31,350 nt of DNA from a virus. The first letter of the stretch is position 1. The number at the start of each line of letters is the position of its first letter. The notes beneath the pieces were generated by a model. The model saw nothing but the letters and a program-made list of their open reading frames with translations. It had not been told where the DNA came from and ran no database searches. The stretch lies in IMG/VR virus record IMGVR_UViG_3300050343_000061, positions 1 through 31,350 of that record. One strand, given 5' to 3'. The position numbers were made by a program, and so were the translations under genes. Below are positions 6,041 to 24,458 of the stretch, piece after piece.

Positions 6041-6056
6041 GCTGCACTAATGCAGC
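6041..6056 (+). repeat. CTGCA-N4-TGCAG inverted repeat, copy 2 (abuts start codon)
   Basis: GCTGCA-CTAA-TGCAGC, a 6-bp stem with 4-base loop, directly touching ATG 6057 where a ribosome site would normally sit. Shares its core with 4538-4551 and 7223-7236. It may be an operator or translational repressor site for the gene at 6057. Confidence 0.6.
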
Positions 6057-6320: not shown

Positions 6321-6625
6321 AAAAAGCACAAGCTATTAACTGCATTGCTTGCGAAACAGAAACAACTTGGTTCGTTGCAATACTTAAAAACAATAGCGGC
6401 GGTACATACGAGAAGCATTGGTACGTCTGCCTTCATTGCTATGAGGAGGACAAGTGGCAAACCGTAACAAGAACAAAGGAACTTACCACGAAAAGTGGTT
6501 CGTCGACTGGCTTACGAAAGCGGGTATCAAAGCCAAAAGGCAACCCCTCTCAGGCAGCTTGGGAGGAGAGTATAGCGGCGACATCAAGCTCGAACTCTTC
6601 GGTCAAGAACTGGTGGGAGAAGTAA
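6317..6625 (+). CDS. Zinc-ribbon small protein overlapping the nuclease gene
   Basis: Starts with TTG 6317 overlapping the previous TGA. The first ~48 residues are convincing: two CxxC pairs (Cys9/Cys12 and Cys38/Cys41) around an aromatic core make a zinc ribbon. From about residue 48 the frame overlaps the nuclease gene (6454-6807) for 172 bases and becomes low-complexity Ser/Thr/Lys, as expected of a shadow frame. The native protein may end near 6465, with an indel removing its stop. Function unknown. Confidence 0.5.
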   Translation: MKKAQAINCIACETETTWFVAILKNNSGGTYEKHWYVCLHCYEEDKWQTVTRTKELTTKSGSSTGLRKRVSKPKGNPSQAAWEESIAATSSSNSSVKNWWEK

Positions 6626-6807
6626 AGTATAGGGACAAGTCTAACTTCCCCAGCCCATACACAGTATTAGATAAGCGAGACATTGCTTTCTACAAAAGAC
6701 GGACGGGCAGTCCGCAAACGTTAGTCATAATGACTGGCGAACAATTCCTAACCTTCATGGAGAACGCAAATGGAATCACAAAACAAAATGATAAAAGCTC
6801 ACCTTGA
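6454..6807 (+). CDS. Holliday-junction-resolvase-like endonuclease
   Basis: 117 residues from GTG 6454, after GAGGAGG. N-terminal KNKGTYHEKWFVDWL, then a PLSGSLGGEYSGDI segment and GEVKYR: Glu13, Asp43, Glu56 and Lys58 form the E...D...ExK active site of the restriction-like fold used by archaeal-type Hjc resolvases and similar phage nucleases. Likely cleaves branched DNA before packaging or during recombination-dependent replication. Fits the downstream exonuclease/annealing/SSB genes. Confidence 0.8.
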   Translation: MANRNKNKGTYHEKWFVDWLTKAGIKAKRQPLSGSLGGEYSGDIKLELFGQELVGEVKYRDKSNFPSPYTVLDKRDIAFYKRRTGSPQTLVIMTGEQFLTFMENANGITKQNDKSSP

Positions 6808-6967
6808 AAAAGGTCATACCTTAACTTCGTTAGGAGCATTAGATTTATACGGCTGCTTTAGATTATCAGCTAGAATATCTGAGCTAAAAACTTCTGGCTT
6901 TCATGTAGAAAAAAATATGATTGAGCTGGCAAATGGTAAAAAAGTAGCGGAGTATTACAAGCCATGA
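6770..6967 (+). CDS. Small winged-helix DNA-binding protein (HTH_39-like)
   Basis: 65 residues with the order IKAHLEKGHTLTSLGALDLYGCFRLSARISELKTSGF, a compact helix-turn-helix/wing pattern as in the HTH_39 (PF14090) family common in phages. Likely binds DNA; could act on the inverted-repeat motifs of this genome. Overlaps the nuclease gene by 38 bases and the next gene by 4 (ATGA). Confidence 0.75.
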   Translation: MESQNKMIKAHLEKGHTLTSLGALDLYGCFRLSARISELKTSGFHVEKNMIELANGKKVAEYYKP

Positions 6968-7221
6968 AGAAACCTAAATCAATAGGCACTGCTGTAGCTA
7001 GCAGTGTGTGGGATGCACACATTACTAAAGCCACAAGCTCACCGCACTATGCTAGAGAATACAAGAAGTATAGTTATGTGCTTGATGAGTATGAGATTAT
7101 AGCCAAGCGCATTAAGAATGGTGAGCCTGTTGGCGAGTCATATCTTAAAGGTGAGCAAAAGAAAAAACTTCTTGAGCTTACTGACTTACACCACGCTGAC
7201 TTCAAGAAATACCTTGAGTAA
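6964..7221 (+). CDS. Hypothetical helical early protein
   Basis: 85 residues, Lys/Tyr/Glu-rich and soluble, starting at an ATGA overlap with the HTH_39-like gene. Ends with TAA one base before the palindrome at 7223. No domain recognised. Confidence 0.65.
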   Translation: MKKPKSIGTAVASSVWDAHITKATSSPHYAREYKKYSYVLDEYEIIAKRIKNGEPVGESYLKGEQKKKLLELTDLHHADFKKYLE

Positions 7222-7222
7222 G

Positions 7223-7236
7223 CTGCATATATGCAG
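7223..7236 (+). repeat. CTGCA-N4-TGCAG inverted repeat, copy 3 (perfect 14-bp palindrome)
   Basis: CTGCATATATGCAG is its own reverse complement across all 14 bases. It lies just after a stop codon and upstream of TATAAT (7249-7254) and of the exonuclease gene. It could be an operator for a promoter here, though no clear -35 is present. Confidence 0.6.
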
Positions 7237-7268
7237 TAGACTAACCTATATAATAAAAGGAGAACTTA

Positions 7269-8046
7269 ATGGAACGCAAAGGTTTCATAGGCGGCAGTGA
7301 CTGCGTAAAAATTATGCAAGGCAACTGGCTTGAGCTATGGCAGATCAAGACTGGTCGCATAGAGTCAGACGACTTGTCTCGCAATATTGCAGTACAACTT
7401 GGCAGCTGGACTGAAGACTTCAATCTTGAATGGTTTGAACATGAGCATGATTGCGTGCTGTCTAATCATCAAGAAGAACTAGAAGATATGATTGGCACTG
7501 TGCCAGCCAAGGGCATGATAGATGCTCGCTGGGGATCTCGCATTGTTGAGGCCAAGCATACCAATCCATACAAAAATATAGATGACATCATCGAATACTA
7601 CATGCCGCAGATACAATTGTACTGCTATCTTGTCAGATGCAGATGGCGCATACTTCTCAGTAATCTTTGGCAACAGCAAGATGGGAATCAACTTATGTCT
7701 CGTACAATCACAAGTATTTCAATTCTATGTGGGCAGTGGTGTCAGACTTCTGGGGTTACGTTGTACGCGACGAAGAACCGATTGGTATTCAAACGCCAGA
7801 CATCTCCATTGACAAGGTTGAGGTGGACAACATGGTCAAGCGAGACGCCAGCACAGACAACCAGTTTATCGACGCAGCAGTTACCTACATCAACGGATAC
7901 GAACACAACCGCGTGTTCGAGAACGCAAAGAAAGATCTCAAAACATGGTCGGTAGCAACGAACGAGAAGTTTACTGCGACCACCTTACAATCAAACGAGA
8001 CAAGCGGGGATCACTCCGCATAACAAGGAGAACCAACAATGACTAA
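7269..8046 (+). pseudogene. YqaJ-like viral recombinase exonuclease, broken by three indels
   Basis: Starts at ATG 7269 after AGGAGAAC. Residues 7-30 (IGGSDCVKIMQGNWLELWQIKTGR) and GMIDARWGSRIVEAKH with Asp85, Glu94, Lys96 identify a YqaJ/lambda-exonuclease-type 5'-3' exonuclease. Conserved sequence changes frame three times: extra T at 7630-7631, extra A near 7681, and one missing base near 7945-7950. Corrected, it continues LSDADGAYFSVIFGNSK, then WESTYVSYNHKYF, and ends with a CDHLTIKRDKRGSLRI tail at TAA 8046 (about 258 residues), overlapping the annealing-protein start. Intact parts on both sides of each shift favour sequencing indels. Confidence 0.8.
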
Positions 8047-8488
8047 TAACCTCAACATCTGGGACAAGCTGGCCTCTTCAGACCCCAAATATCTGAAGAA
8101 GGTCAGCTTCGGCAGCCGATCATTCACCGCCATCGACCCACAATATCAAGTCAGAAAGATGACTGAACAGTTTGGGCCAGTCGGTGATGGCTGGGGCTGG
8201 CACAACACAACAGAGATTGTGCCTGTAAGCAACGGAGACAGCGCTGTGCTAGCGCATGTTACTGTCTGGCATACATCGCCAGCAAATTCATTTGGCCCCT
8301 TCACAGGGTGCCGTAAGTTCTTTGATGCAGCTAAGGGTCGTATGGCTGAAGATGCACCGAAGATGGCTATCACTGATGGCCTAACCAAAGCACTGTCGCA
8401 CATTGGCTGTGATGCTGACATCTTCTTAGGTAAGATGGATGGCAATAAGTACGATCAAGACAGTGGTAACAAGAGCAGTGGCTGGTAG
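8039..8488 (+). CDS. Putative single-strand annealing protein (ERF/Sak-like)
   Basis: 149 residues preceded by AGGAGAAC. The order IWDKLASSDPKYLKKV.....FTAIDPQYQVRKMTEQFGPVGDGWGW, then DAAKGRMAEDAPKMAITDGLTKALSHIGCDADIFLG, matches phage annealing proteins of the ERF/Rad52-like (Sak) group: an AI...YQ...A.E.FG..G.GW core and a late ...TDGLTKAL...G... helix. Sits between the exonuclease and SSB-like genes, the standard order of phage recombination modules. Which annealing family exactly is uncertain. Confidence 0.7.
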   Translation: MTNNLNIWDKLASSDPKYLKKVSFGSRSFTAIDPQYQVRKMTEQFGPVGDGWGWHNTTEIVPVSNGDSAVLAHVTVWHTSPANSFGPFTGCRKFFDAAKGRMAEDAPKMAITDGLTKALSHIGCDADIFLGKMDGNKYDQDSGNKSSGW

Positions 8489-8512
8489 TCACACAATACA
8501 GGAGCCAGAAGC

Positions 8513-8884
8513 ATGGCAGATCAACAGTACGATGACACAAATAGAGGCGCAGCCTTCACACCATTTCCAACACAGCAAATGATCTTGCAAGGTAAGGTCA
8601 ATGTAGAAGGCGTGGATTCAAAAGTAGTTCTTGTCAAAGACCAAACCAAAGATGGGCGTGGCATTGTCGAAGTCTATCAAAAGATGGCAGTCATGTTTGA
8701 CAACGACAAGAAGGGCAATGATGCAGCACCCGATTACTCTGGGCCAGTTGGTGAAGAAAAACGTATTGCTGGGTGGAGACGCATGAAAGATGGTAAACCT
8801 TATATGTCTTTTCAAATAAGCGACAAACAACAAGGTCAACAAACTGCATCTTCCCCCTTGTCAGAAGATAGCATTCCGTTCTAA
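8513..8884 (+). CDS. SSB-like single-stranded DNA-binding protein
   Basis: 123 residues with a beta-rich OB-like body (MILQGKVNVEG..VVLVKDQTKDGRGIVEVYQKMAVMF), a conserved late block (RIAGWRRMKDGKPYMSFQISD) and a disordered tail ending PLSEDSIPF. The last residues mimic the DDDIPF tip through which bacterial SSB recruits partner proteins. Likely coats single strands for the exonuclease/annealing pair. Last gene before the terminator at 8932. Confidence 0.7.
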   Translation: MADQQYDDTNRGAAFTPFPTQQMILQGKVNVEGVDSKVVLVKDQTKDGRGIVEVYQKMAVMFDNDKKGNDAAPDYSGPVGEEKRIAGWRRMKDGKPYMSFQISDKQQGQQTASSPLSEDSIPF

Positions 8885-8931
8885 GCTAACATTAGTTCTC
8901 CAGAGGAGCGTCCTGCCCCTCCCTCATAACT

Positions 8932-8974
8932 GCCTCGCTTAGTCAGAACACTCTGCATAGCGGGGCTTTTTTTT
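8932..8974 (+). terminator. Rho-independent terminator after the recombination module
   Basis: Stem GCCTCGCT (8932-8939) with AGCGGGGC (8959-8966), one G-U pair, 19-base loop, followed by eight T (8967-8974). Clear intrinsic terminator shape; separates the SSB-like gene from the last three early genes. Confidence 0.8.
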
Positions 8975-8990
8975 ACCCAAAGGAAACAGC

Positions 8991-9182
8991 ATGGAAACAT
9001 GGAAACAAATAGAAGCTCGGCATCGCCGTGAAAAACTAGAGTTAGTAAAAGCTCTGGCAAAATCTCGCTGCACACAAACTCAAGCAGCAAAAATCCTTGA
9101 CGTAAAACTAACTGGATTAAATAATTTTATTCATCGCAACAACATATTCTGGCCTGTAATAGAGCAAGGAAAAAGGCAATGA
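8991..9182 (+). CDS. Small Fis-type helix-turn-helix protein
   Basis: 63 residues. Residues 28-50 (TQTQAAKILDVKLTGLNNFIHRN) form a Fis/HTH_8-like helix-turn-helix, after a charged N-terminal helix. AAAGGAAAC precedes the ATG. Just downstream of a strong terminator, so it needs read-through or its own promoter. Likely a DNA-binding regulator or a structural nucleoid-type factor. Confidence 0.7.
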   Translation: METWKQIEARHRREKLELVKALAKSRCTQTQAAKILDVKLTGLNNFIHRNNIFWPVIEQGKRQ

Positions 9183-9358
9183 AGATACATCGCGCACATG
9201 AAGTAGAGTTAGACTTTCTTAAACGCAGAGTTGATACACTAATCAATGAAGAAAACAGAACTGACTCACACCCAAATGTAAAACAAGATCTATGGGCAGC
9301 ACGTTCTGAACTAAATCAATTTGTAAACAAACTAAGAAAAGAAGGCTATCACATATGA
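9179..9358 (+). CDS. Small charged helical protein
   Basis: 59 residues, MKIHRAHEVELDFLKRRVD..., predicted coiled and highly charged. ATG overlaps the previous TGA (ATGA) and its own TGA overlaps the next ATG, so it is coupled on both sides. No function assigned. Confidence 0.6.
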   Translation: MKIHRAHEVELDFLKRRVDTLINEENRTDSHPNVKQDLWAARSELNQFVNKLRKEGYHI

Positions 9359-9642
9359 ATGAAAAACTACTAGCCGCAATGCTTGAAGATGCAAAGCAAG
9401 TTAATAAAAGAGCTAAAGAAAGAGATGGTCAAAGCCGATTCTTAAAACAAAACTTACCTGTTGATTACAACATGGGCGGTAGGGACGGTAAACCAGAGAC
9501 AAAAGAAATAATTAGACTAGCCTTAGAAGGTAAGAGCAAAGACTCTATATGCAGACGCATGTCTTTCTTAGGATACAGTCGCACTAAAACATTAAAAACT
9601 TTATGCCGACACGCAGATAAGATTAATAATCTAAAGCATTAA
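9355..9642 (+). CDS. Last early gene, possible HTH protein
   Basis: 95 residues, basic. The C-terminal part (IIRLALEGKSKDSICRRMSFLGYSRTKTLKTLCRHADKI) has the spacing of a helix-turn-helix, but no family is recognised. Ends TAA 9642, overlapping the stop of the convergent endolysin gene by 4 bases. Confidence 0.65.
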   Translation: MNEKLLAAMLEDAKQVNKRAKERDGQSRFLKQNLPVDYNMGGRDGKPETKEIIRLALEGKSKDSICRRMSFLGYSRTKTLKTLCRHADKINNLKH

Positions 9643-10088
9643 CTCAAAGTGAGGGCCATCAATGAATGGCCTTCGCCCCTGACTTCTACGCGTAAATCAA
9701 CATAAGCATTCATAGCTTCTTCCATTGTGCCATCCCATATACGGATGTCATCTATATGCCAAGCTGCTCCCCAGCGCACACTTACACCAGCAGCTTCAGC
9801 ACCTTCCTTCATAGCGTCAGCCAAATCGTCATACAGATTAAGCTCCCAAGAACCACGGCCCTCAATGTAAGCCATCAAATCAACAGCCAATCCATCCAAA
9901 TGTTTTGACTTCATAGTCTGACTAGCGCCTTTAGCTACTAATGCTTTTTGCATTTCAAGAGTACGCATACCCTGAATAACACCAAAGTCTGTCTTAGTTG
10001 CAGTGATTGCAAACTTAACTACAGAAATCATACGCTCGTCTATGCCTTCCATTCGATCAAGGCTGCGTTGCGATAATTTAAAACTCAT
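9639..10088 (-). CDS. Endolysin, L-alanyl-D-glutamate peptidase (M15/VanY-like)
   Basis: 149 residues. Cuts the peptide stem of peptidoglycan to release progeny. The pattern GVIQGMRTLEMQ, SKHLDGLAVDLMAY (His63, Asp70) and WGAAWHIDD (His111) gives the zinc-binding HxxxxxxD...H set of M15 peptidases such as phage T5 endolysin. The start at 10088 (MSFKLSQRS) is preferred; an in-frame start at 10160 would read through the holin gene. No signal peptide, so export depends on a holin; holin-like genes lie just upstream. Confidence 0.88.
   Translation of the reverse strand: MSFKLSQRSLDRMEGIDERMISVVKFAITATKTDFGVIQGMRTLEMQKALVAKGASQTMKSKHLDGLAVDLMAYIEGRGSWELNLYDDLADAMKEGAEAAGVSVRWGAAWHIDDIRIWDGTMEEAMNAYVDLRVEVRGEGHSLMALTLS
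9651..9674 (+). terminator. Hairpin after the last early gene
   Basis: Stem GAGGGCCAT (9651-9659) with ATGGCCTTC (9666-9674), one G-U, six-base loop, nine bases past the TAA of the early gene and inside the 3' end of the convergent endolysin gene. No T run follows, so it may stop or protect the mRNA end only partly. Confidence 0.45.
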
Positions 10089-10429
10089 TTCTTTAATCCT
10101 TTCATTGTGCGAATTCCAAAGCTTGCAGCTATTGAAGCGTACATTCCCCATTGCACCCACATTGGACAGTTAGACAAATTATCAAAGCCAACACGCATTG
10201 CGTCTTGCCAGCTTGGTATAAAATTAGCGCAAAGAATAGCTACAAAAACTATAGTCCATAGCTCATCTTTCCAAGAATCCTTTGAGGCTTCTATTGCTGA
10301 CTGCTCCCAGTCCATTTCACCAGTAGCTTGCTTGAGCTTGATCTCTGCATTAGCTTTCTGAACAGCAGTCTTACCATCTAAGTAACTAGTAGCTAGCCCA
10401 CCAACTGCACCTATAATCTGACCAATCAT
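10085..10429 (-). CDS. Holin, GTA_holin_3TM-like
   Basis: 114 residues. The middle block ASKDSWKDELWTIVFVAILCANFIPS and the C-terminal MWVQWGMYASIAASFGIRTMKG match the 3TM holin family first named in gene-transfer agents (SWKDE...P.W......ASFG.R). Hydrophobic segments at about 58-72 and 90-106, plus a weaker one at the N-terminus (1-17). It would make the inner-membrane hole that lets the endolysin, coded immediately downstream with a 4-base overlap, reach the cell wall. Confidence 0.8.
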   Translation of the reverse strand: MIGQIIGAVGGLATSYLDGKTAVQKANAEIKLKQATGEMDWEQSAIEASKDSWKDELWTIVFVAILCANFIPSWQDAMRVGFDNLSNCPMWVQWGMYASIAASFGIRTMKGLKK

Positions 10430-10632
10430 TTTTCAGATCCAACCCATACTGCAAAAGCACCTGTCAGAGCGCCTGTAACCGTGGCTGTAAGAGCGGTAGC
10501 TTGAGTGCTAACCACATCCTGCGGCAAAGACATAAACCATTCTATAACGCGAATATACATAATGGTCATAACAAGCATCATAACGCGTGGCATTATCTTC
10601 CATGCCAATATCTTTTCCATAGCTATTGTCAT
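10426..10632 (-). CDS. Two-TM holin-like small membrane protein
   Basis: 68 residues with two hydrophobic spans (about 14-34 and 45-65), a basic start (MEKILAWKIMPR) and a short charged end (GSEK). Located between two other membrane/lysis genes with ATGA overlaps. Could be a second holin, an antiholin or an accessory lysis protein. Confidence 0.65.
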   Translation of the reverse strand: MTIAMEKILAWKIMPRVMMLVMTIMYIRVIEWFMSLPQDVVSTQATALTATVTGALTGAFAVWVGSEK

Positions 10633-11090
10633 TTCATTCCTTTCAAAAACTCAGTTAAGAAATACAAAACAGCAAAGCCGCCAATACTTAACGAAGCAAT
10701 TACACCCCAAGAAATATATTTAATTGTAGCAGCTATCTGCTTCTGCCTTTGTTCAGCTTCCTTCTTTCGCTGAACGCGCATCTTAGCCTCAAAAGCTAAG
10801 AAAGAATCCCAAGTCCCTGGCTTGCCATACAAGCGACAAATAGATTCTAATTCTTTTCGTTGTTCTTGTATCTGTTGCAAAGCAATGAACTCATCAAAGT
10901 CATCAGCAGACTTGCCCATAACTTTAGAAAACAATCCGTCCTTCTTGCGATTGCCTCTAGCTTTTAGATCTTCTTCTGCGCCAACAAGATTTTTAAGAGG
11001 CGATAAAAAATCACTAACCTCTTTACCATTAGATACAAACTTTTTGATTGTTGAATAAGCTGCATTGGCTGCTGCTAACTCAGCTAACAT
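10629..11090 (-). CDS. Conserved phage protein with C-terminal membrane anchor
   Basis: 153 residues: an Ala-rich N-terminal helix (MLAELAAANAAYSTIKKFV), a charged middle containing YGKPGTWDSFLAFEAKMR, and one membrane segment near the end (ISWGVIASLSIGGFAVLYFL). Proteins with this layout are common in marine podoviruses and myoviruses close to lysis and tail genes; function unresolved, possibly lysis or virion assembly at the membrane. Confidence 0.65.
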   Translation of the reverse strand: MLAELAAANAAYSTIKKFVSNGKEVSDFLSPLKNLVGAEEDLKARGNRKKDGLFSKVMGKSADDFDEFIALQQIQEQRKELESICRLYGKPGTWDSFLAFEAKMRVQRKKEAEQRQKQIAATIKYISWGVIASLSIGGFAVLYFLTEFLKGMK

Positions 11091-11093
11091 AAC

Positions 11094-11285
11094 TTAGCTC
11101 ATCATGTTCATTCGCAAAAGCAAAGCAATAATGAATGCACTGGTTGCAATCATAATAGCCTCAAGCCGCTTTACACGATTAAACAAATCTTTGAATTGAA
11201 TATCCATCTCAGTCTTCATAGCTATTAACTGCTTCTCAACAGCATCAATTCTATTATGTGCAGAGGCAACAGTTTGTTTAGTCAT
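11094..11285 (-). CDS. XhlA-like coiled-coil/TM protein
   Basis: 63 residues: coiled coil with heptads in residues about 8-44 (RIDAVEKQLIAMKTEMD ... RVKRLEAI), then one membrane span (MIATSAFIIALLL). This matches the layout of XhlA-type proteins that help holins. Sits at the head of the lysis group. Confidence 0.6.
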   Translation of the reverse strand: MTKQTVASAHNRIDAVEKQLIAMKTEMDIQFKDLFNRVKRLEAIMIATSAFIIALLLRMNMMS

Positions 11286-11605
11286 GCTATATCATCCACA
11301 ATTTCTATTTCTATATATCTACTATTAGGAAACGTTTGAACTCCGCTATCAGCGTAAGTGACTTGAAACTCTCCTTCATAGCTACCAACAGTAGCAGTAT
11401 CAGAAGGAGACCAAGAGTATGTAACCTGACCATTAGTCGCATCAGAAATAGTTGCAGCTGAATCTACAGTCGATGAAGTTTCACCAGACTTTCTCATTTT
11501 AAATGCAACACTAGCACCACTTAAAGAAGCAACAGAACCATCGCCATTAATTAAAGTGGCAGTGATTATAGGCTTGGTATCATTTTGTTTAATGTAAAAG
11601 GCCAT
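11282..11605 (-). CDS. Ig-like virion appendage protein (BppU N-terminal-like)
   Basis: 107 residues, all-beta pattern beginning YIKQNDTKPIITATLINGDG, with VAFKMRKSG, GQVTYSWSPSDTATVGSYEG and TFPNSRYIEIEI. This matches the N-terminal domain of baseplate/tail-fibre proteins such as BppU (PF10651). Likely a small tail appendage or fibre-associated protein. Overlaps the next gene by 4 bases. Confidence 0.7.
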   Translation of the reverse strand: MAFYIKQNDTKPIITATLINGDGSVASLSGASVAFKMRKSGETSSTVDSAATISDATNGQVTYSWSPSDTATVGSYEGEFQVTYADSGVQTFPNSRYIEIEIVDDIA

Positions 11606-11623
11606 ATCTTTCTTTACCTTGTA

Positions 11624-13018
11624 TTAAGCAACATTTGCAAGAACTACTTCCTCATCAATAATTGCATCACTAACATCAATAGAAATGTAAACTTCATTAG
11701 CTTGAGTAAGCATAATCAAATCATTAGCCCCATCAATGTCAGGATTAATTAAAGGTGAAACGTCAAGAATTGTAGACTGATCTATTACTGGCAATCCAGT
11801 AGTTATAGATATTGCTACACATTCATGACTTTCATTAGCTGTAGGAATATCAATTTGAACTGCATTAGTTGTAATATGATTAGCAGTTAGTTGAATGAAA
11901 TAATCTGGGCTATCAACAACAGGAGGCGAAGTTACAATATCATCAGAAATAAATTGATGATTTTGAGTTAAAGAAATCTGACCTACTGTAGGAGTATTCG
12001 TTGTAATATTGTTTGCAGTTAATGGATTCTCTACTAATGAAGGCTCATTGATAGAAACAGGATCTGTTATAATTTGAGTGTCAAGACCTACAGCTTCTCC
12101 TGAAGGAGACTTTCTAATAAATAAATCACCAACCATGCTAGAGTGATTTAAGCAATAGTATTGCAAATACTCAGGCGCATCATAAGCTAAGACTAACTCA
12201 AGCCTATCTTCATAATCAGGTGGATGATAAAGAGTAACGCCATCAGTGTATGAAACACCATCAAGCGTTCTTAACCTAAAATCATGTCCACTATAATTAC
12301 TCCCACTAAAGCTAAAAGTATAACCGTGAGTTCCACCAAAACGCCCAGTATGTAACTCAAGACTATTAAAAAGTGGCCCTATATTACCAACATTAACTTT
12401 ATAATCTTGAAGGGTAAACTGACCACTAGAAACTCCGACCTCAAAACGACCATCAATATGTTCTCTAAATGTATGGTTCTGAGAAATAGAAGGTGAATCA
12501 ATTAATGGAGAATTAGTTGTTATGTCTGTAGAAGTAAGATCGCTAAGTGTATTTAAAACAGGTTGATCAATAAGCGGTGTGCTTGATGTAACGCTGTTAG
12601 AAGTAAGCAAGTGAGTTTGCGTAATGTTTGACGCATCAATAATTGGATTATTAGTTGATATGTCATTAGCTGTAAGAGCAATGAATTCAGATATACTTGC
12701 AGAATCTACAGATGGATTACCTGTTGTTATATCGTTAGCAGCTAAAGAAAAATTCGTAACATGAGTAGCGGGATCAACTACAGGAATACCAGCAGTAATG
12801 TTCTGAGCTACAATTACATGTCCTTGAGTAATCCCTGATGCGTCAACAACAGGTGCGCTTGTTGCGATCTCAACAGATGTAAGCGCATGAGACTGACTAA
12901 TTGCAGCAGCATCAACCGTGGGTGCGCCAGCAACAATGTCATCAAGGCCAAATCCTGCTTCTGCAACAGCCCCAGTATCCGCGAGTGGGGCAGACGCTAG
13001 TGGGCTGAAACCTAGCAT
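11624..13018 (-). CDS. Repetitive tail appendage protein with cupredoxin-like insert
   Basis: 464 residues. Repeats of about 22-24 residues (L.s.dItT..P.vDs.sIsq.h) run from residue ~26 to ~182 and again ~322-415. Between them (~185-305) is a different beta domain with GHDFRL (His245) and YYCLNHSSMVG (Cys289, His292, Met295), the ligand order of a type-1 copper site in cupredoxins. Similar cupredoxin-like inserts occur in marine phage structural proteins. The N-terminus MLGFSPLASAPL also resembles marine phage tail proteins. Likely a surface-exposed tail decoration or adhesin; copper binding is inferred. Confidence 0.7.
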   Translation of the reverse strand: MLGFSPLASAPLADTGAVAEAGFGLDDIVAGAPTVDAAAISQSHALTSVEIATSAPVVDASGITQGHVIVAQNITAGIPVVDPATHVTNFSLAANDITTGNPSVDSASISEFIALTANDISTNNPIIDASNITQTHLLTSNSVTSSTPLIDQPVLNTLSDLTSTDITTNSPLIDSPSISQNHTFREHIDGRFEVGVSSGQFTLQDYKVNVGNIGPLFNSLELHTGRFGGTHGYTFSFSGSNYSGHDFRLRTLDGVSYTDGVTLYHPPDYEDRLELVLAYDAPEYLQYYCLNHSSMVGDLFIRKSPSGEAVGLDTQIITDPVSINEPSLVENPLTANNITTNTPTVGQISLTQNHQFISDDIVTSPPVVDSPDYFIQLTANHITTNAVQIDIPTANESHECVAISITTGLPVIDQSTILDVSPLINPDIDGANDLIMLTQANEVYISIDVSDAIIDEEVVLANVA

Positions 13019-13027
13019 GTGTTACTC

Positions 13028-13258
13028 CTACGGCTTCGGGTTTGCGTCTTTGATGGCTTGTATATCAGCCTTCCAAGCATCAACGCCCTCGTGAAATATC
13101 TTATCCAGCTGCTCTTCAATAGCGGGGTAAGCAGCTTGACGCATATGTATATACATAGTTGCAGCGCTTTCTGCTTCTAATGCAGCCATATCAACATTTC
13201 GTGCAGAAATCTCTGCTTCAGTCATATCTACCGTGACGCCGTTTTTAATCTTCTGCAT
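13028..13258 (-). CDS. Small conserved tail-region protein
   Basis: 76 residues. The C-terminal block MRQAAYPAIEEQLDKIFHEGVDAWKADIQAIKDANPKP resembles a motif (R...YP.I..QLD.I...G...WK..I...K...P) seen in many phage proteins encoded beside tail fibres, some called assembly factors or chaperones. Located directly between two fibre-type genes; likely a fibre assembly or capping protein. Confidence 0.65.
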   Translation of the reverse strand: MQKIKNGVTVDMTEAEISARNVDMAALEAESAATMYIHMRQAAYPAIEEQLDKIFHEGVDAWKADIQAIKDANPKP

Positions 13259-13864
13259 CTAAGCGTCCTTCACTTTGTAAAAGTTAAACGTGCCAGAGGT
13301 AAAAGTTCCACCGCTAGGGAATATCTTTACGCCGCCAATCCCACCAGTTGGTGATGTTGAGAAAGCAGCATAACAGCTGCTTTGTGCGCTTTCAGTGTGC
13401 CATCCATGATCTGTTCCATTGAAGTTTGCTCTAATATACGATGTGTTGAAAGCACCTCGATCACTATTTATAGTAATGTAAGCATAACCAAAAACAGAGT
13501 TGTTAGCTACATATGTTGGATACACATTATACATTCTATCAACTTGGTTTTTTGTTAGAGTAGCACTAGCGTTTTGAATGACTTTAGTGCCATAATTAGA
13601 AGCAGTAATAGCAGCATCATTGCCGTCAAGAAACTGTGACTGAACATGGGCCGATGTGTTAGACCTAATCAAATCATTGAAAGTAAAAAAGTAAGTATCA
13701 CCCGCAGTCAAGCCAGTGTATTCGACAACAGATGTGGATGATAAAGTTGTCTTGCTAATAAACTCCAGCGCACCGCCGCCACCACCAGCCGCAGCACCGT
13801 CAATCGTCACACTGCCGCTAGTAGCGCTGATGTCATTTGTCTGATGATTGATGGTTAAAGCCAT
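13259..13864 (-). CDS. Tail fibre-type protein
   Basis: 201 residues, beta-rich, Ser/Thr/Gly/Asn-rich, starting MALTINHQTNDISATSGSVTIDG followed by a GGGGG hinge. The second half has short alternating strands and ends in a compact GGTFTSGTFNFYKVKDA strand. The N-terminal motif recurs in marine phage distal tail proteins. Probably a fibre or receptor-binding tip. Confidence 0.65.
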   Translation of the reverse strand: MALTINHQTNDISATSGSVTIDGAAAGGGGGALEFISKTTLSSTSVVEYTGLTAGDTYFFTFNDLIRSNTSAHVQSQFLDGNDAAITASNYGTKVIQNASATLTKNQVDRMYNVYPTYVANNSVFGYAYITINSDRGAFNTSYIRANFNGTDHGWHTESAQSSCYAAFSTSPTGGIGGVKIFPSGGTFTSGTFNFYKVKDA

Positions 13865-13867
13865 AAG

Positions 13868-14173: not shown

Positions 14174-15121
14174 TGGTTTCTCCTTTAGGCGTAAGTTACT
14201 TCAGATGTGTGGATCGTGGCGACCCAGCGAATGTTTGTTGATGCTGCACCAGTAACTGTGATGGCTAAGCCACCGTTGGTTGTATCTGCACTAAGAGCCA
14301 TGCCCCATGCTGGTGTGTTATCCAAGACAGTTGTAGCAGAATTGACCAACACTGTCGTCCCAGCAGAGCCTTCCCTGCGGATTAGACCCTCAACCTTCCA
14401 TGCTGCACAAGCTGTACCATCAGCCGCTTGCTGGCGAGCTACGATAGTGCCGTGAAAGGCGTAAGCGGAGTTGTTGGGTAGGATAATTTGGTTTGTGCTG
14501 CTAGCCGTACTTTTATTTGTCGTTAGTGCTTCGGCAGTAGCATCTGTCGTGTCGCTACGCAGAATAAAAGTGCCTGTCTGTGCATCGCCAGTTGCAGAAA
14601 ATCTACCAGAGGCTTGCGTATGTTTTCCATAGATATCGCTGCTTGCTTCTTTACCAACTGCTACAGAAAAGTCTTGAGTTGCTTGCGCCCTATACCCCAC
14701 GGCAAAAGTGTAAGTATCTGAAGCTATTGCGAAATTACCTAAAGCAATAGCATCTGCGGAGGTTGCTTTTGCTCGGTCTCCTATTGCGATACTACTAGCA
14801 CCAGTAGCCCCATAGCTTGAAGTGTTGTTAGCTATAGCTGCTGCGAAGGAGTCTTGACCGTTAGCAAAAGAACGTCCAATTGCATTGGCATAAGACGCAT
14901 CAGCCCTTGCATCATAACCAATTGCTAAACCACCAACGCCAGCACTAGCAGCCGCATGTCCAATTGATACATTGTAATTTTGAGTTGAGTTTGTGTTAAA
15001 CCCAATTGAGACCGACCTGCTGCCAGTCGCACGTGCATTAGACCCAATTGCTACTGCATTATCACCACTTGCTGTTGGGGTAGTCGCAGAAACAGCATTA
15101 TCACGATAGAGATCAGGATCT

Positions 15122-15234
15122 CCACCACCACCACCCCCAGCATCTGCAAAGGTTACAGCACCAGAGCCATCTGTAGTAAGTACCTGCCCGTTTGTGCCGT
15201 CTGCGGTAGGTAAGGTGTAAGTCTCTGAAATGCG
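15122..15234 (-). repeat. Fibre linker repeat, copy 2
   Basis: Encodes RISETYTLPTADGTNGQVL...FADAGGGGG, nearly identical in protein to 15944-16053 but with many synonymous third-base changes. Confidence 0.8.
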
Positions 15235-15943
15235 TACTGTGTCGGTTGTACCACCAATGCTGACTTGGTTTGCGGCGGTAGACTGTACGCTATTACCAAT
15301 AACAACTGAGTTTTGGCTAGAGGCTGTAGAGTTGTAACCCAAGGCCAGTGAGCCAATGCCATCGGCTTCATTAGAAAAACCAAGAGCAACAGCATATGTA
15401 GCAGTGGCTTGGGCTTGATAACCAATAGCTACGGTTTCAGCTCCACTAGCCGTTGCATTGTAACCTCCAGCCGCAAAACTTCTTTCACCAGAAGCTATAT
15501 TCTCACGGCCTATTGCAATGCTTTCTGTTCCAGTAGCTTTTGCGTTCTTTCCCATCGCAATGCTATTAGCAGCACTAGCACCATAGCTGCTTGTATTATT
15601 GTTAATAGCACCTGAAAGACTTGAATTTCCTGACGCATAAGAGTTTGGGAATGCAACGGCATAAGACGCAGCAGTTTGCGATAATGCTCCAGCGGCCAAA
15701 GAATAAGAACCTAGTGAACTCGTACCAGATGCATAACCTAAAGCAGTTGAGTACCCACCTGCACTATCTGCGGCAATACCAAAGCTAGATGCTAACGTGC
15801 CTGTCGCATCACAATTTATGCCAACGCTAATATTGCTGTCTTGTGTTGCAGTTGCATTGCGGCCAATCGCTACTGCGTTGACACCAGTGGCAGAAGGCTT
15901 TGGCGATGTGCCATCATAGTTTTCTGCAAAGAGATCAGGTGAG

Positions 15944-16053
15944 CCACCGCCACCCCCAGCATCTGCAAACGTAACTGCACCTGAACCGTCAGTAGTAAGC
16001 ACTTGACCATTTGTGCCATCAGCCGTTGGCAGGGTATAAGTCTCTGAAATGCG
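15944..16053 (-). repeat. Fibre linker repeat, copy 1
   Basis: First copy of the linker between YadA-like modules; the pair marks a duplication of the whole module of roughly 820 bases. Confidence 0.8.
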
Positions 16054-17075
16054 TACAGTTGCAGTCGCATCGCCAAGCGTAATTTGATTTGATGCAGTTG
16101 TTACAGCATTTTTGCCGATAGCTACTGAGTTTTGGTGCGCAGAGTTTGCGCTCTTTCCGATAGCTATAGCTGATGACTGACTTGCCGAAGCTCCTACGCC
16201 AATAGCAATCGAATTATTTGCTGACGCCGTTGAATCACTCAAAGCCAAGCTGTCATTACCAGAGGCAATAGCACCCTCGCCAAAGCTCATAGCATTTGAG
16301 CCTGTACTTTTAGCTAAGTAACCCAAGGCCACACTGTATGCACCAGTTGCGCCGTAACTGCTTGTGTTGTTAGCTATGGCTGCTGCAAAGCTGTCTAATG
16401 CTCCAGCGTAAGAGCCGCCTAAAGCTGTTGCTCCACCCGTAGTATTGCCACTTACACCTGCGATTGACTTGCTACCGCCACCATTCATGCCGATTGCAGT
16501 TGTTCGCTCATAATTAGCATTGCCAATTATAGCTATAGCTTTTTCGCCAAGAGCTTGAGCGCCAGCGCCCAGAGCAACTGAATAATCTCCAGTAGCATCG
16601 CTAAAGCCGCCAAGGCTAATACTTCTCAATCCGCTGGCAACTATATTATCGCCAATCGCCACAGCATCTTCGCCACTAGCCGTTGTGTTGTCGCCAATTG
16701 CTATAGCATTTGCACCACTCGCCGTTGGAGTAGTAGCGCTAGATGGATTATCAGCATAAAGCGCAGGAATATCTTCAGCCGTAGCCCCGATAAACACAGT
16801 AGCTGAACCGCTAAGGTTAATAGCTGCGTCTGAGTTGCTGCTTTCGCTTACCGTGCGTGACAGGGTGGTGCCAGTGGCCGTATAAGTACCTGTGCCTATT
16901 TCCCAGTTATTACCGTCCTCAATAACGTAACGGACTACATCTGCATTAGCTACACCAGCATCAGCAAAGGTCTGATAACCATCCTCAGCAGAGCCAAGCG
17001 TAATGGGGAGAACCAGTGCCAGTAGCACTAGTGGACATCTTTGCCCTATTTTTAAGAACGGCCATTGTTTAGCCC

Positions 17076-17447: not shown

Positions 17448-17503
17448 GTTAATCTCCTATTTGGCTTAACTTCCGTTACCATAGTTATTAATTAATTTCA
17501 AAC

Positions 17504-20500
17504 TTAATACCTTCCAAATCCAAGAGGAGCATCAAGCTCGCCCTCAATCATATTAGTAAACTCATTCATCTTGCCTTTCCAAAACCACATTCGAGCAAAA
17601 GGCAAATTACGAATAACTTCTTTGGTACCCTCGCCAATATTCCCCGTAACTAAATCATAAGACCCGCGAGCAAGATCAGTCGCAATGCTAGGTCCAGCGC
17701 CTAGTAAGCCGTTTGCAGCATCTAGCGCATCAGGCTTCTGAGGGAAAGCGAGGCTGAAGAACACCGCCAGTTAGATTGGGGTCCACCCAATGCTAAGCTA
17801 GTAGACATGGCTGTGTAGAACATATCGGAATACAAAGCAGTAACGCCTGAGTAATCAAAGGATCTAGCGAGCTGATCTTGGAAACTCATCTCTACGAAGT
17901 CGGGCGTTTTGTATTGCAGCACCATATAACCCAAGCCCATAGACAGCGCTGTGCCAATCCACTGGTTCTTTAGCTGCCCATGTCCATATGCCGCTGTAAT
18001 CTTGTTTACCGCAGCTAAGCTATAGCTATAGAACTGAAACGGTAGTCCAAGCAATCCGCTTTCAATACGAGCATATCCCTTGAACTCTCTGTCTTCCTTC
18101 ATGCCGAACTTCTCAGCAACACGCATAGGAATGTAAGCAATACCATCAGTAATTATTGGCTTATCTGCCGGTGTGCCCATTAGGATTGTATTCATAATGC
18201 CAGAGCCAAGAGCATTACGGAATGTACGCACAGTCTCAGGATCTACTCTTGCTTGCTTTTCTATCTCAGCAACAGCCAAATCATTAATTGCATTTTCATA
18301 CGCAACTTTGTCTTTGTTCTTTCTCATATCAAAGCCCATTTCTTTGGGCCTGTTGATTGAGTGCATAATCTCATGCATCTTAATGAAAGTCACATAATCT
18401 TCTGGCGTATTGATGATACCTTTTTTAATAGGTTTAACACCTTCAACTCGTGGGTTTTCCCAACCGCGCTGCTCGTACATTACATCCTTGATGTGCTCTT
18501 CATCTATGTAAATGCGCTTCTCAGAGTCACGATAGAATGCTGCTTTATAGCGACCGCCTTTAGCAAACTCACCTGTTGGCCCAGATATGACTTCAGCTTT
18601 GGTTGCAGGAAACTCAATCGTATTACTCCATGCCTCTGTGTTTGCCATATACAAACCAGACTCAGACTTCTGCCAAGGTGCATTTGCAAGCTTCTTAGCA
18701 TCTTCTAAATCAATGTTATAACGCAGCAGATACTCTTGCTCTTGCTTCGTTGCTTTGCCCTGCGTCCAGCGCACAGAGTAATCAATAATGCTGTGAGAGC
18801 GCATCATAGCATCAAAGTCTTTGAAGATACGAGTAATCGGGCCAAGACCGTTGAGCAGATAGAAAGGCTCTTTAGCCTTATCTAGTATGTCAGATCTAAA
18901 CGGATTATTGTTTACATCATCAACAAGACGCAGATGCGCCGAGTTCATAATATTATCTAAGGCTTCACCAGCTAGTCTGCCCTCTTTGCCACCAAGTCTT
19001 AGCTGATTGTTCTTCATTACTGAAAACAAGCCACGAAACGTAGGAGCAAGCCCATGCTCCATCATGATCTTAGCTGGCTCAGTTATTGTCGATATACCGG
19101 CAGAACCTAGATAGTTTAACTGTGCAAGGCTGCGAAGAACTCTAGCCGTTGATTGATCCCAGCGATCAGGCTCACGCTGCAAACCACCCGTAACTCTTCT
19201 ATACAAGTGACGCATATCACGCAAAGCGCGGTTAGCTTGCTCTGGTGTATTGCCAGCATCCAGCATTTCGTTAAACGTATCATCTAATACATCGTCGATA
19301 GATGCCCCATCAAACTGTCGAGAAAACTCATAGCGAGTTCCAGTGCGCTGAACGTATGCCTTCATTACAGCAATCGGATTAGTTTGAATAAAGTCTAAGA
19401 CCAATGCGTTTGGAATATCTACTAAGCGGTGCTTAAAGTGCTTTGATTTACCAGCGCCATAGTAACCAGCCTCAGGATCTAAGATGTCCTTAATGCCAAT
19501 GATGTTATCTATTGTATCGTCAACACGCGTTTTAATAGCTGCTGGATCTGTAGATAGCTGTACTTTGCTAAACTTACCGTCCTTCTCAACAACTATTGAC
19601 GGATTATTCTTGTACCAGTCTGTAAGAATACGCTCAAACTCTACGCGGTTTGCCTTGATTGCATCCTGATCCCAGTATCTAGGACGGAAGATCTTTTCGT
19701 TAGCTGGCATAACTTCATCGGTTATATCATCTAAGATAGCACGAGCCTCATCTACTTCATCGCCGTAGCGCCGCACCTGAGCCTCTAGCTTCATACGGTA
19801 GTCTATGTTGCGAGCAGTCTCTAAGCGCTTCTGTACGCCTTCTATGCGCCTCTCACGGCCTGTTATGAACTTCTCGTAGTGTGCCTTAGATCCAATCAGG
19901 CCTTGCTCGCTAAGGCGAGTCTCCCAAGTCTTGTAAAAAGTATTGAGCTTGTTCATGGCCTGAGCTTCAAAATCATCCGCAGCTTCAACGCCACGCATTG
20001 CTTTTGAGTCTACGCCCTCAAGCCATGTCTCAAAGTCTTTGCGCTTAAATGTATAATCCAGAGGATTGACCACACCCTTGCCAGTGCTCTCACCCCAGAT
20101 CAGCATCATGTCATCGTATGTCTTTACCCATTCGCCTTCGAGCAGCTTAGAGTTCTGAAAGACTGAGTTACCTACCTTCTGACCTTGTTTGTTTGCTGCA
20201 AGCAGTATGCCAGAGTCGTTAGCTATTTTGAGTGTACGCAACTTAACTGAGTTCGGGATGCTGTCATCAGTAAGAATACGTTTCATAGGAGTGGTTACTC
20301 CTTTATATAGCCATGAGTCGGTAAACAAGCTTGGCGCTATCTCAGCAACAGGCTCACCCTCAACTGGCTCAATCTGTTTCTGCAGATTAGCTATCTCTTC
20401 TTCAGCAGACTTCTGCGCCGCAATCCTTCTTTGCATTGGGATTGTTACTAAACCACTGATGGCACCGCCAAGAATAAACGAAGCGCCAATGTTTAATGCT

Positions 20501-20994
20501 GCCTCTTCTTTTGTAGCCAAGGGATCAAGCGGATAGCGAATAGCTTCCTGACCAGCAACGACAGCAGCGGTAGACGCGCCACCCCTAACAGCAGCGCCAG
20601 CAAAAGTTGCAGCACGAGCAAACGGAATACCAATGTAGTTGATAGGATCAAACAGTTCCGCAGCAAACTGTGGTATAATACCTGACCTAGAAAGATCTTG
20701 GCGTGTCTTTAGCCCATCTCTCAGGTTTTGAACCAGATATTCCATATGATCTTTATTTGTAGCTCTAAGCAATGTCGAGCCATACTGCTTCATATCATCA
20801 GGAATATTATCTATTGCCCTATATCCATCTTGAGGCAACGAAGGAAAGCGAGCTATTTCTAACTCTCTATTTATTAGAGGCTGATATTTATAAGCTAAAG
20901 ATGCCCCAACAGTTTTTAGAAAAGAAACATCGGGCATAGGTGTTACTCTTTGCCCAACCTCAATCTCTCTTAATGCTGTTAGCCCATTTTTCAT
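17504..20994 (-). pseudogene. Large internal virion protein (T7 gp16-like) with HExxH motif; two frameshifts near C-terminus
   Basis: About 1162 residues when repaired. Likely ejected with the DNA to form the trans-envelope channel, as T7 gp16 does. Positions ~110-185 contain Ala/Gly-rich membrane-active stretches (IGIPFARAATFAGAAVRGG; NIGASFILGGAISGLVTI). HEIMH at residues 874-878, with YEN about 25 residues later, gives a gluzincin-type zinc protease signature. The frame breaks at two C runs (plus GGGG 17778-17781, GGG 17742-17744); deleting one base from each gives LGGPNLTGGVLQPRFPQKPDALD and continues to TAA 17504. Overlaps the upstream internal virion gene by 4 bases. Confidence 0.75.
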
Positions 20995-23900
20995 TCTTCT
21001 AGCGCCCTATTAATGTCTTCATATGTCTTGGGAACATAGTCAGAGAAGAGAGGGTTAAGTCTGTTTTCCAACTCTTCTCTTACAAGAAACTTTCTTTTTT
21101 GTTCTGTCTCTTGCTCTCTTAATGCAGAATCACGCACACTTGCCTTTTTAGCTGTATGGTCTGCAATATCACTACGATCAAAGGCAGGCCACATAAGCTC
21201 AGGCTTTTCGCCCTTTCTAGAAACTTGTTCAAAGATTAATGGTTGCAATACTTTATTTTCATCCACGAAATAAGAAAAGTAATTTACTCCAGCAGTGCTT
21301 TCATCTGGAACTAAGTACACTCGCTTAACATCCTCTATCTCTATATCTGTAGTCCCCTTAACAGTAACAGTTGGGTCTAACGAATATCCAAATGGAAGCT
21401 GTGATTCTACTGCTGCTATAAATGCAGTACGATCATCTTCCTCAGGAAATACAGCCTCTAAAGAGTAACGTGATCTTTCGATTGAGCCAGCAGGAAAGCG
21501 CGGATCAGCAATGTATTTGCTTTTTGCATACTTGCTATCAACAATTTGATTTAACACAGAGTTAATTTGCGATGCGCCCTTTCCAGTAAGGGCCATATAC
21601 TCAGTAACAGGTGCTAGCTCTTCTGCAATAATAGGATCTTTTACCAAATTTAAAGTATATGCAGTTGGTGTCATTTTTTGTAAAACAACATCCATATTAA
21701 TCTTAGCTTTAGGATCTGTCTGCCTTTGAATTAAAGTAGTTGCAATTTCATTAACACTTTCGCCAGTATTTAATCTTATCTGATGTATGTCATTTAAGCG
21801 CTGAGCATCCGCTGGACTAATAGAATCGCCAAATCTGCTAATAAACACACCAGTATTAGTGGGGTCATTAGATAAAACAGCGTGTATATCTAAAAATTGC
21901 GCTGCATTTGGAACTACTTGACCAGATAAGATTTGGTCAAGCTTATCTATTAACCCCTGTGGTGGAGCACTTCTCATTATAGAAAGCGCAGCAGCCCGTT
22001 GTGTATCGGGAAGCTGATCAAACCGCTCTAAGTCAATGCCAGCATTGTCTAGCATATCCTGACTAATGTCTCTGTCAGCCTTATCGTTAGCGTTTCCGCC
22101 GCCACCAAGAATACGGATAGAATTATTGCGAAGCTCAATAGCTTCTTTCATTTGTGTTTCATTAGCAGATACTGCTGACTTAATACCTTTAATTTTACTA
22201 ACGACAGCATCAACGTCATCTGTAGCTTCTAAGATCCGATTGCCAGCAGCAACTACATCAGGCGACATGCCTTCACGCTTACCTCGGCTGTCTACATATA
22301 AAATAAGATTATTTAGACTGTTAGAGTTAGCACGAGCAGCAAAGGTTGTGACCTCACCAAAGGCTCTGGACTTACTTAGACGGTTTGATTCAGATATACC
22401 TTGATCTGCCGTTAAGCCATTTGGTCCAATACTATCTTCAATCTTAGCATTTAGAGAATTAAATTCTTTATCACTAAGCGCACCAGACTCAGCAGCAGTT
22501 GCAGCTTCTGTTACAGATTGAGCAATCTCAAAGCGTAATGCTTCTCTATCTCGTTGCTGTCTAATCTGATTAATGTTTGCTGATAGAACTTCTCTAGCAA
22601 ACCCAGTGTCCTCATTGGGATCAAAAAAGTCAGTGTTGTAAATCTCAGAAATAAATGTGCGCTGCTTTAATGACAGCTTGCTCATGTCCTCTGGATTATT
22701 GCTTACTAATGCAATCCGAAACTCTTCTATATTACCTTCAGCAGCCGCTTGAATTAAATAAGGGCGAATAAGGTTCTGGCGAGCATCTTTTAAATCGCTT
22801 TCTCGTTCTGATCTTGAATAAGTCTCATCAGATAAGAAACGTTGATCTAACTTAGACTGAACATTTGTATACAGATCATTTGTTAAGTTAAGGCCAGCTT
22901 GTATCGAGTAATCCTCATCTGAGGCAAAGGCATCAGACGCATTAATGCTAGATGTAGTAAACAAAGTTTCAAGAGTATCAGGCAGAGTAAGCTCTAGCTC
23001 TCTTGCTTTTAGCTTTGCTAGATTCGATGCTTGCTGAATTTGATCCTGCTCAACAGCATTGTAATCGCTAGATACAACCGAGCTATGTCTAAGAACCGCT
23101 TCTATGTTTGCTGGCTCAACATAAGTCAAAAGACTTTTAACTTCTTCTTGCAAACCTTTTGGCAATCCTGACATCTGATTACCGCGAGTTCGTATAGCAA
23201 GATCAATCGCATTGCGCTCTGATTTGTTTGCAGTTCCAGAAAGAAGATACTCAACAGCGCCAAGTGCAATAGATTGCTTAAGCTGTTGTGAGGCGGTCTG
23301 ATCAGCTCCAATTTTTAACAGTGAAGAAGATACACCATTCTGAGCATTGGCAAACTCTCTATCATGTATTGCAGCGGCCTCACTAATATCTTCACCTTCA
23401 CGCGCAATAAAGCCACCAGCACGAGCAATGCTATAAACATCATCTTGACTTGCACTAATCCCAGTAAGGATAGAATTAGCGGCATTCTGCCTAGATCTTG
23501 ATGCAACGCGCTCTTGAATGTTTAACTTTGTAAGAGCTAAGAACTTAGCGCCTGTTGTTTCTACAAACGTTCTGTATTTACCTTCAGCACCATCAGCCAT
23601 CTGACCAATGTAATTACTCATTACTTCATCATATGACTCAGGATCATACTGGTATTTTAAAGCAATCTCTTGAGCCTTAACTCTAAGCTCAGTGCCAATT
23701 GAGTCTTCGTATCTCTTATCAATAACGCTCTGATAAGCAGCAGATGCTATACGACCAAATCCTTTAGGAGCCTTAAATGCTTCTGGCTTTCCTGTTTCTG
23801 GATTTATTGTTCTTAGTTTCTTTTCCTCAATAGCTTCAGCAATTTCTATACCTTTTTTTTTCAGCCGCAATAGCAGCCTCCTTAAAAGCAATCTCTTGAA

Positions 23901-24012
23901 ATGCAGATGCAACATTGCTAATCGCATTACCAATATCTTGGCTTCCAGCATTAGTGCGGACAACCCCAATAGGTTGAGTAAATTGTTGCGTTCTTTGCCT
24001 AATAACAGCCAT
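20991..24012 (-). pseudogene. Large internal virion protein (T7 gp15-like position), one poly-A frameshift
   Basis: About 1006 residues once corrected. ATG 24012 overlaps the TAA of the gp14-like gene and gives MAVIRQRTQQFTQPIGVVRT...; the frame is lost in A9 (plus T9, 23853-23861) and resumes as KKGIEIAEAIEEKKL if read as A8. Long helical, Gln/Glu/Lys-rich protein with no enzyme motif seen. Position after a gp14-like gene and before the gp16-like gene matches the T7 order gp14-gp15-gp16, so a DNA-ejection channel part is likely. Confidence 0.75.
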
Positions 24013-24458
24013 TATTTGCTCACATTATATTGATAAATGCCTTGTCCTATAGTTCCAATAGCATTGAACAAAGAGGCAGTTTGAATATTTCGACCTCTAC
24101 GCCTTTCAGCCATAGCAGCCATTTCTGCCTTCATTCCTTCCATGCTAGATTGCCTTACTATTCTTCCAATGTCATCACCCACAAGACTTTCCTGCCTTTC
24201 AAGAAATGCCTGTACGCTTTTATCCGAGCCAACATCACGACCAGCTGCAAAAAATGCAGCTACATTAGCTGATGTTGCTAATTCATACTCTTCTCGCCTT
24301 GCCCTAGACATCTGCAAGGCTTGGACTTCATTTAAAACTTTGTCTGTTTTAATTTGAAATGCGTTTAAATCAGCAGCCTCACGCTGTCTTCTAGCAGCGC
24401 TAACTTGCCCCATTGCGCCAAAAAGTGAACCAGCAAGACTAAGAACAGCTAAACTCAT
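24012..24458 (-). CDS. Internal virion protein, T7 gp14-like
   Basis: 148 residues. A short hydrophobic N-terminus (LAVLSLAGSLFGAMGQ) is followed by a long helix (ARRQREAADLNAFQIKTDKVLNEVQAL ... RREEYELATSANVAAFFAAGRDVGSDKSV). This layout matches small podovirus internal virion proteins that go into the outer membrane during ejection. Overlaps the nozzle gene stop by 4 bases and the next gene start by 1 base. Confidence 0.8.
   Translation of the reverse strand: MSLAVLSLAGSLFGAMGQVSAARRQREAADLNAFQIKTDKVLNEVQALQMSRARREEYELATSANVAAFFAAGRDVGSDKSVQAFLERQESLVGDDIGRIVRQSSMEGMKAEMAAMAERRRGRNIQTASLFNAIGTIGQGIYQYNVSK

Follow-up and report, generated by a model that had tools for sequence, protein, structure and literature searches.

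A candidate exchangeable-cassette adhesin fibre with protein-conserved joints in a short-tailed marine phage

How do two linkers of one phage fibre come to agree in every residue and to differ in their DNA? The fibre gene lies in the window—the whole stretch of DNA that was analysed, a 31,350-base IMG/VR virus record—and carries three YadA-head modules. Its two linkers agree in 39 of 39 residues, whereas 21 of their 117 nucleotides do not match. Of these 21 differences, 20 are third-position differences and 1 is a first-position difference; none is nonsynonymous, pS is 0.62, and dS is about 1.3. A sequence-only reading, whose linker coordinates were within a few bases of those used here, had correctly noticed this contrast and explained it either by an old duplication under strong protein constraint or by selection that keeps the repeats different. 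Modules equally diverged in protein and DNA, which it had named as the observation that would count against it, were not found: the head cassettes share 39–48% protein and 49–53% DNA identity (pN 0.40–0.46), whereas the linkers are identical in all 39 residues.

The phage is short-tailed as judged by its gene content, namely a head–tail connector, internal virion proteins, a tail protein, and terminase. The same kinds of genes neighbour the fibre ORF, which is hence a member of the tail/structural gene block. Both window ends carry pieces of the terminase large subunit on the same strand, which suggests a circularly permuted genome. The nearest isolate by head–tail connector is Pelagibacter phage EXVC031P Hodr (60.7%), so that a SAR11-like host is plausible; in the 27.8 of 34.2 kb of Hodr examined by patterns, no YadA-like or linker-bearing ORF was found. 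At 17504–20994 and 28864–30392, adjacent same-strand ORFs of the window resemble split parts of one internal virion protein gene and of one head–tail connector gene, respectively—possibly frame breaks or sequencing errors. Two genes at 13030–13867, coding for 76 and 201 aa, are missing in the related contigs L202 and L219, in which the DNA on either side of them is contiguous; close to its start, the 201-aa product carries a run of Gly, like a small fibre.

The fibre is arranged as follows, from its N-terminus:
14185..17028, minus strand: tail-fibre ORF P0001, 947 aa, GTG start as listed, true start unsure
16765..17004, minus strand: N-terminal domain, residues 9–88, common to relatives
16405..16761, minus strand: cassette A_N, residues 90–208, in 7 fibres of the 78-ORF set
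16339..16398, minus strand: joint J2 of module 1, residues 211–230, NNTSSYGA
16075..16338, minus strand: cassette A_C, residues 231–318, 94–100% identical in L202, L203, and L204
15943..16059, minus strand: linker 1, a joint J1, residues 324–362, ends in a Gly run
15634..15939, minus strand: cassette B_N, residues 364–465, slot 2 in the window and L202, slot 1 in L001, L217, and L218
15559..15627, minus strand: joint J2 of module 2, residues 468–490
15259..15534, minus strand: cassette B_C, residues 499–590, slot 2 in the window and L204, slot 1 in L004
15124..15240, minus strand: linker 2, a joint J1, residues 597–635
14863..15117, minus strand: cassette C_N, residues 638–722, slot 3 in the window and L204, slot 2 in L203
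14794..14856, minus strand: joint J2 of module 3, residues 725–745
14584..14793, minus strand: cassette C_C, residues 746–815, identity to the other fibres compared not above 53%
14188..14574, minus strand: C-terminal domain, residues 819–947, located in 77 of 78 fibre ORFs

The start is unsure because the window differs in length by 4 nt from L202 and L203 at 17024–17035, just upstream of the listed GTG; the start region of these two relatives corresponds to another frame in the window. Two conserved parts had escaped the sequence-only reading: J2, a second conserved element around NNTSSYGA that occurs once per window module, and the C-terminal domain of about 130 aa, found in all but one of the YadA fibre ORFs examined. 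The N-terminal domain is presumed to serve virion attachment.

The Pfam model YadA_head (PF05658) matches the fibre ORF in 14 stretches with an E-value of 2.9e-62 and 206.3 bits (cut-off 25). A predicted monomer of module 2 with both linkers (16 sequences, pLDDT 78.9) features strands every ~14 residues, and the linker appears in it as two short predicted strands of moderate confidence. A Foldseek search with the module 2 model returned the YadA-type heads of BpaC (7o23, E 1.1e-7), CbpF, UspA1 (3pr7), YadA (1p9h), and BoaA (3s6l); TM over the target reached up to 0.75, and TM over the whole model was low (0.13–0.41). By this match of overall fold, the module is predicted to be a head of the YadA type, a family whose fold is a left-handed parallel beta-roll. 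Against solved structures, the linker gave only chance-level matches (actinohivin, E 1.4 and 1.7), and the C-terminal domain had no match among PDB sequences up to E 1. A trimeric autotransporter adhesin was considered and rejected: no YadA membrane anchor was detected, YadA_head is the only Pfam match at E 0.01, and NCBIfam models of such adhesins match the fibre far below cut-off. The product is probably a homotrimer and, on the best reading of its sequence, the tail fibre with which this short-tailed marine phage would bind its receptor.

Relatives of this fibre were collected as a set of 78 ORFs, the window's own and 77 from viral contigs. By pattern, 55 of these have one J2 and no linker; one J2 together with one or two linkers occurs in 6, two J2 in 11, and three J2 in 6. 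Since the set was chosen by similarity to the window, these proportions are not population frequencies, and some ORFs are cut by contig ends. One-, two-, and three-module fibres thus exist, and the variation in module number for which the sequence-only reading had proposed to look is there. A consecutive J2 pair with no linker recognised in between occurs in L003, L007, L013, L207, and L220. Several contigs (L003, L005, L020, L062, and L218) carry two or three YadA-type fibre genes in tandem, which are possible cassette donors; several of the tandem genes bear another N-terminal segment (MGKIELDHTGSG... or similar). Outside this set, five weak relatives (29–39%) were found among 51 pattern-matching stretches of bacterial genomes, and a whole-fibre tblastn search of phage records gave two matches—the N-terminal domain of Roseobacter phage CRP-207, 50% over residues 13–90, and a second match at 29%.

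With each window cassette searched separately and the fibres cut at the joints, the following cassette map was obtained:
Window: A_N A_C / B_N B_C / C_N x
L202: A_N A_C / B_N x
L203: A_N A_C / C_N x / x
L204: A_N A_C / unrelated insert + B_C / C_N x
L001: B_N x / A_N x / x
L207: x / A_N x
L205: A_N x (A alone)
L217 and L218: B_N x (B alone)
L004: x B_C / x

Cassettes recur in relatives at 83–100% protein identity overall: A_N at 89–96% in its five best matches, A_C at 94–100% in three relatives, B_N at 83–88% in four, B_C at 89–92% in two, and C_N at 94–98% in two. Relatives at ≥70% identity exist for five window half-cassettes, and four of these five are found in more than one slot. A_N, for instance, lies in the first module of five fibres, in the second module of L001, and after a linker in L207; A_C was seen only as part of the first module, in four fibres, apart from L220, in which it has a J2 joint on either side. 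Partners change as well: clustered at 70% identity, B_N has five partners in five fibres and C_N three in three. As identified by these protein matches, half-cassettes occur in different slots, orders, and combinations among related phages, all of them metagenome-derived viral contigs, of which two of the richest, L202 and L203, are shorter than 5 kb. In L204 (832–2010), the linker is followed directly by a non-YadA segment that forms the start of module 2; the joint hence seems to accept unrelated domains.

The ends of the shared tracts were mapped in 70 representative fibres of the 78. In the head region, 55 of 67 unique tract-end sites, drawn from 23 fibres, lie in joints (J2 35, J1 11, module start 9), compared with about 20 expected, and none of 20,000 simulations reached 55; the joint zones had been drawn after the first examples had been seen. 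This count, in which the C-terminal domain was placed by homology, replaced two earlier ones: an unrestricted count with 108 of 544 ends in joints against 87.6 expected (p 0.01), in which the C-terminal domain common to the fibres made up many of the tracts and left the enrichment weak, and an initial count of head ends that relied on an incomplete marker of that domain, with 55 of 114 against 26.0. Eight of the nine tract ends of the window itself lie in joints. The match to L204 breaks off within the Gly run of linker 1, starts anew about 12–14 residues past J2 of module 2, and ends again at J2 of module 3; the match to L203 likewise ends at the Gly run of linker 1. In such matches, the tract ends cluster at J1, at J2, and at the starts of modules.

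Synonymous divergence sets the joints apart from the cassettes. The L204 record is 97.6–97.7% identical to the window over most of 4347–13029 (97.7% over 8026–13029), and within the fibre gene B_C and C_N are similarly close (dS 0.03 and 0.06), whereas linker 2, which separates them, has a dS of 0.86 (Fisher p 2e-9). The C-terminal domain is also diverged between the two (dS 0.94). In the comparison with L202, linker 1 has a dS of 1.35 with flanks of 0.25 and 0.35 (p 7e-5), and J2 of module 1 is saturated. J2 exceeds its flanks in five of seven comparisons, which share fibres and are not independent, and has no synonymous difference in the other two; linker 1 differs from that of L203 at one site. 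These low values indicate that joints sometimes travel with cassettes. Judged by synonymous sites, the joints are often more diverged, and in that sense apparently older, than the neighbouring cassettes.

The linker core is found well beyond YadA strings. The degenerate pattern DGTxGQVLxTDGxG occurs in at least 120 viral stretches, and among the matches listed, 117 of 121 ORFs with the core show no more than one YadA-like repeat when repeats are counted with a simple regular expression; this expression undercounts true repeats (it missed the L205 fibre), and the share lacking YadA repeats is hence approximate. The core appears, from these pattern matches, to be a common phage-fibre connector that is mostly found without YadA repeats and is used by YadA strings too. 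In an ORF of L170, three near-identical cores follow each other at a spacing of 31 residues. Most of the linker DNAs compared differ by 12–30%; the longest identical run of a pair has a median of 14 nt, and 88 of 323 pairs share runs of at least 20 nt.

The main explanation of the sequence-only reading was that a single head module had been tripled in place long ago, after which purifying selection held the linker and the heads were free to diverge. The linker values (pN 0, pS 0.62) and the common architecture of the window heads, each with one J2, agree with such a history, and the strong protein constraint on the linker that it assumed is upheld by the absence of nonsynonymous differences between the copies and by the recurrence of the core in viral stretches. 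However, an AU test on 24 distinct YadA-fibre linkers (105 nt; three rows with long branches) rejected linkers 1 and 2 as sister copies (p 0.012), and their nearest relatives lie in other fibres: the linker of L203 for linker 1 (99.0% identity) and that of L015 for linker 2 (93.3%). Five of the six window half-cassettes have a foreign match at 88–100% identity and are only 39–49% identical to each other. On the AU test and these identities, local duplication was rejected; with the slot and order changes among relatives, triplication is largely refuted already and has become unlikely. A pair of linkers that is identical in DNA, unlike that of the window, exists in the L009 ORF at 1274 and is apparently a recent true duplication. 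The other explanation, selection that keeps repeat DNA different and so prevents the loss of modules by recombination, could draw on the 21 differences between linkers of the same protein. Yet codon draws from the phage's own usage give an expectation of 27.5 ± 3.5 differences, so that the observed number carries no sign of selection to diverge; the linker DNA copies are not unusually different and are, if anything, more alike. One- and two-module relatives and the DNA-identical linker pair of L009 also speak against it, and we give this explanation hardly any credence.

Genes that could promote exchange are present on the plus strand of the window:
7269..7955, plus strand: YqaJ/RecE-like recombination exonuclease, proposed helper (Pfam YqaJ E 2.3e-7; phrog_434 RecE-like E 2e-17)
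8039..8488, plus strand: probable single-strand annealing protein, proposed helper (annotation of homologues)
8513..8884, plus strand: SSB-like protein (phrog_18154 E 7.7e-7)

The identity of the annealing protein is probable and follows the annotation of homologues that are 33–39% identical: HTVC035P (39%, 'putative single strand-annealing protein') and PseuP_222 (33%, 'RAD52-like annealing protein'). Most other listed matches are named 'hypothetical protein' or 'exonuclease', the PHROG is annotated 'exonuclease', and a Pfam search of the product gave no match. Systems of an exonuclease and an annealing protein recombine imperfectly matched DNA, and the YqaJ exonuclease and the annealing protein perhaps act at the fibre joints.

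The reading that we prefer, with a probability of about 0.7, is an exchangeable-cassette adhesin fibre that recombines at protein-conserved joints, perhaps with the YqaJ exonuclease and the annealing protein as helpers. The fibre would begin with an N-terminal attachment domain, continue as a string of three beta-roll heads of the YadA type, and end in the conserved C-terminal domain; one head would be two variable half-cassettes flanking J2, and the heads would be connected by J1, that is, the TLPTADGTNGQVLTTDGSG linker with its Gly hinge. Phages would swap and reorder head cassettes in frame via recombination at the joints, with the exchange across imperfect homology promoted by the phage's own exonuclease and annealing protein, and the outcome may be altered receptor contacts or reach. 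If structure fixes the joint protein and the DNA of the joints comes from many alleles in a common pool, the two linkers of one gene would be the same in protein and not in DNA.

A more ambitious version holds that J1 and J2 are dedicated exchange joints of an adhesin-shuffling system, in which marine phages share a pool of half-heads and cassettes are added, lost, reordered, and replaced in frame via low-stringency annealing by the phage's own recombinase pair, so that one virion displays several different heads; this version is tentative. Real exchange could also proceed by illegitimate recombination, with selection retaining only in-frame swaps at domain boundaries, which the joints would then simply mark. 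This is the simpler mechanism compared with helper-driven exchange; domain mosaicism of phage tail fibres is described as widespread in the part of the source available (PMC10684548), and an identical run of only 14 nt in the median linker pair offers little homology. However, repeats of ~14 residues should tolerate many internal in-frame swaps, yet 55 of 67 sites lie in joints, and about a quarter of linker pairs (88 of 323) do share runs of at least 20 nt; the mechanism is possible, and we lean against it. That the mosaics are chimaeras of metagenome assembly, joined at repeated linker or J2 sequence, would fit relatives that are all metagenome-derived contigs and joints that are the most repeated part of the gene. 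But linker DNAs that mostly differ by 12–30% offer few stretches at which short-read assembly could join them, one fibre with a single module was recovered from two different samples (contigs L205 and L206) at an equal ORF length and with equal match statistics, and the differing cassette orders come from contigs with different sample numbers. Chimaeras are thus an improbable source of the mosaics.

Replacement of the whole gene at the fibre position occurs as well, as judged from G011, a near-complete relative. It is 89.6% identical to the window over 17501 to 24736, with neighbouring virion genes common to both, and has an unrelated 1066-aa ORF adjoining them at the position expected for the fibre; this ORF has no Pfam match. 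Among 43 searched of 80 contigs fetched for the annealing protein, the fibre was present in 5, four of these as partial matches, so that turnover within one lineage could be traced in one close relative only (G001). Probes for two flanking genes gave 0 and 1 hits in 20 of these contigs, and a DNA search for the virion-gene block gave no match in five records (L219, L203, L202, L220, and L001), none of which need contain the block.

The exchangeable-cassette reading turns the linker puzzle into a testable rule for the remodelling of marine phage fibres: fixed protein joints, free cassettes, and a changeable slot order. The joints mark in-frame head junctions, and peaks of synonymous divergence at them provide a simple scan signature for other phage fibres.

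Going by the title of a study of T-even adhesins that is cited in PMC6363177 and PMC10408124, conserved motifs are reportedly the exchange points at which adhesin specificity is swapped. Window-type fibres resemble this in that exchange ends concentrate at conserved motifs (55 of 67 sites; the less targeted counts, 108 of 544 and 55 of 114, are weaker). They differ from it in their units, which are half-heads of a multi-head YadA-type string and can each recur in more than one slot, and in their joints, where divergence of the DNA often exceeds that of the cassettes. Compared with the heads of YadA, BpaC, UspA1, and BoaA, the fibre shares the 14-residue repeats and the predicted beta-roll; unlike trimeric autotransporter adhesins, it has no Pfam-matched membrane anchor, and its gene lies among the tail genes of a phage.

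That phages exchange segments within their fibre genes is documented as domain mosaicism of receptor-binding proteins (PMC10684548), and the window fibre is alike in this respect; in the portion of that text available, YadA occurs 0 times and no slot permutation within one fibre is described. For a tailspike gene, conserved sequence beside the variable receptor-binding domain was proposed as a recombination site (PMC10408124). According to the accessible part of that source, those motifs flank one receptor-binding domain and their DNA is conserved above its surroundings, whereas in the window joints it is the protein that is conserved, and the DNA has often diverged further than in the cassettes. 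YadA domains occur in marine phage structural proteins (PMC3909814, PMC9146016, and PMC7029224, as far as their available text goes). Among these is a pelagiphage tail fibre with a C-terminal YadA domain in a variable region (PMC3909814); it has one such domain, and no multi-head string, linker, or permutation is described in the part of the article at hand. Neither slot permutation of YadA heads nor protein-fixed joints with diverged DNA were found in the open-access literature searched, as far as its accessible text reaches. Fibre mosaicism in phages is thus already known, and its version with YadA-head cassettes would be the new part.
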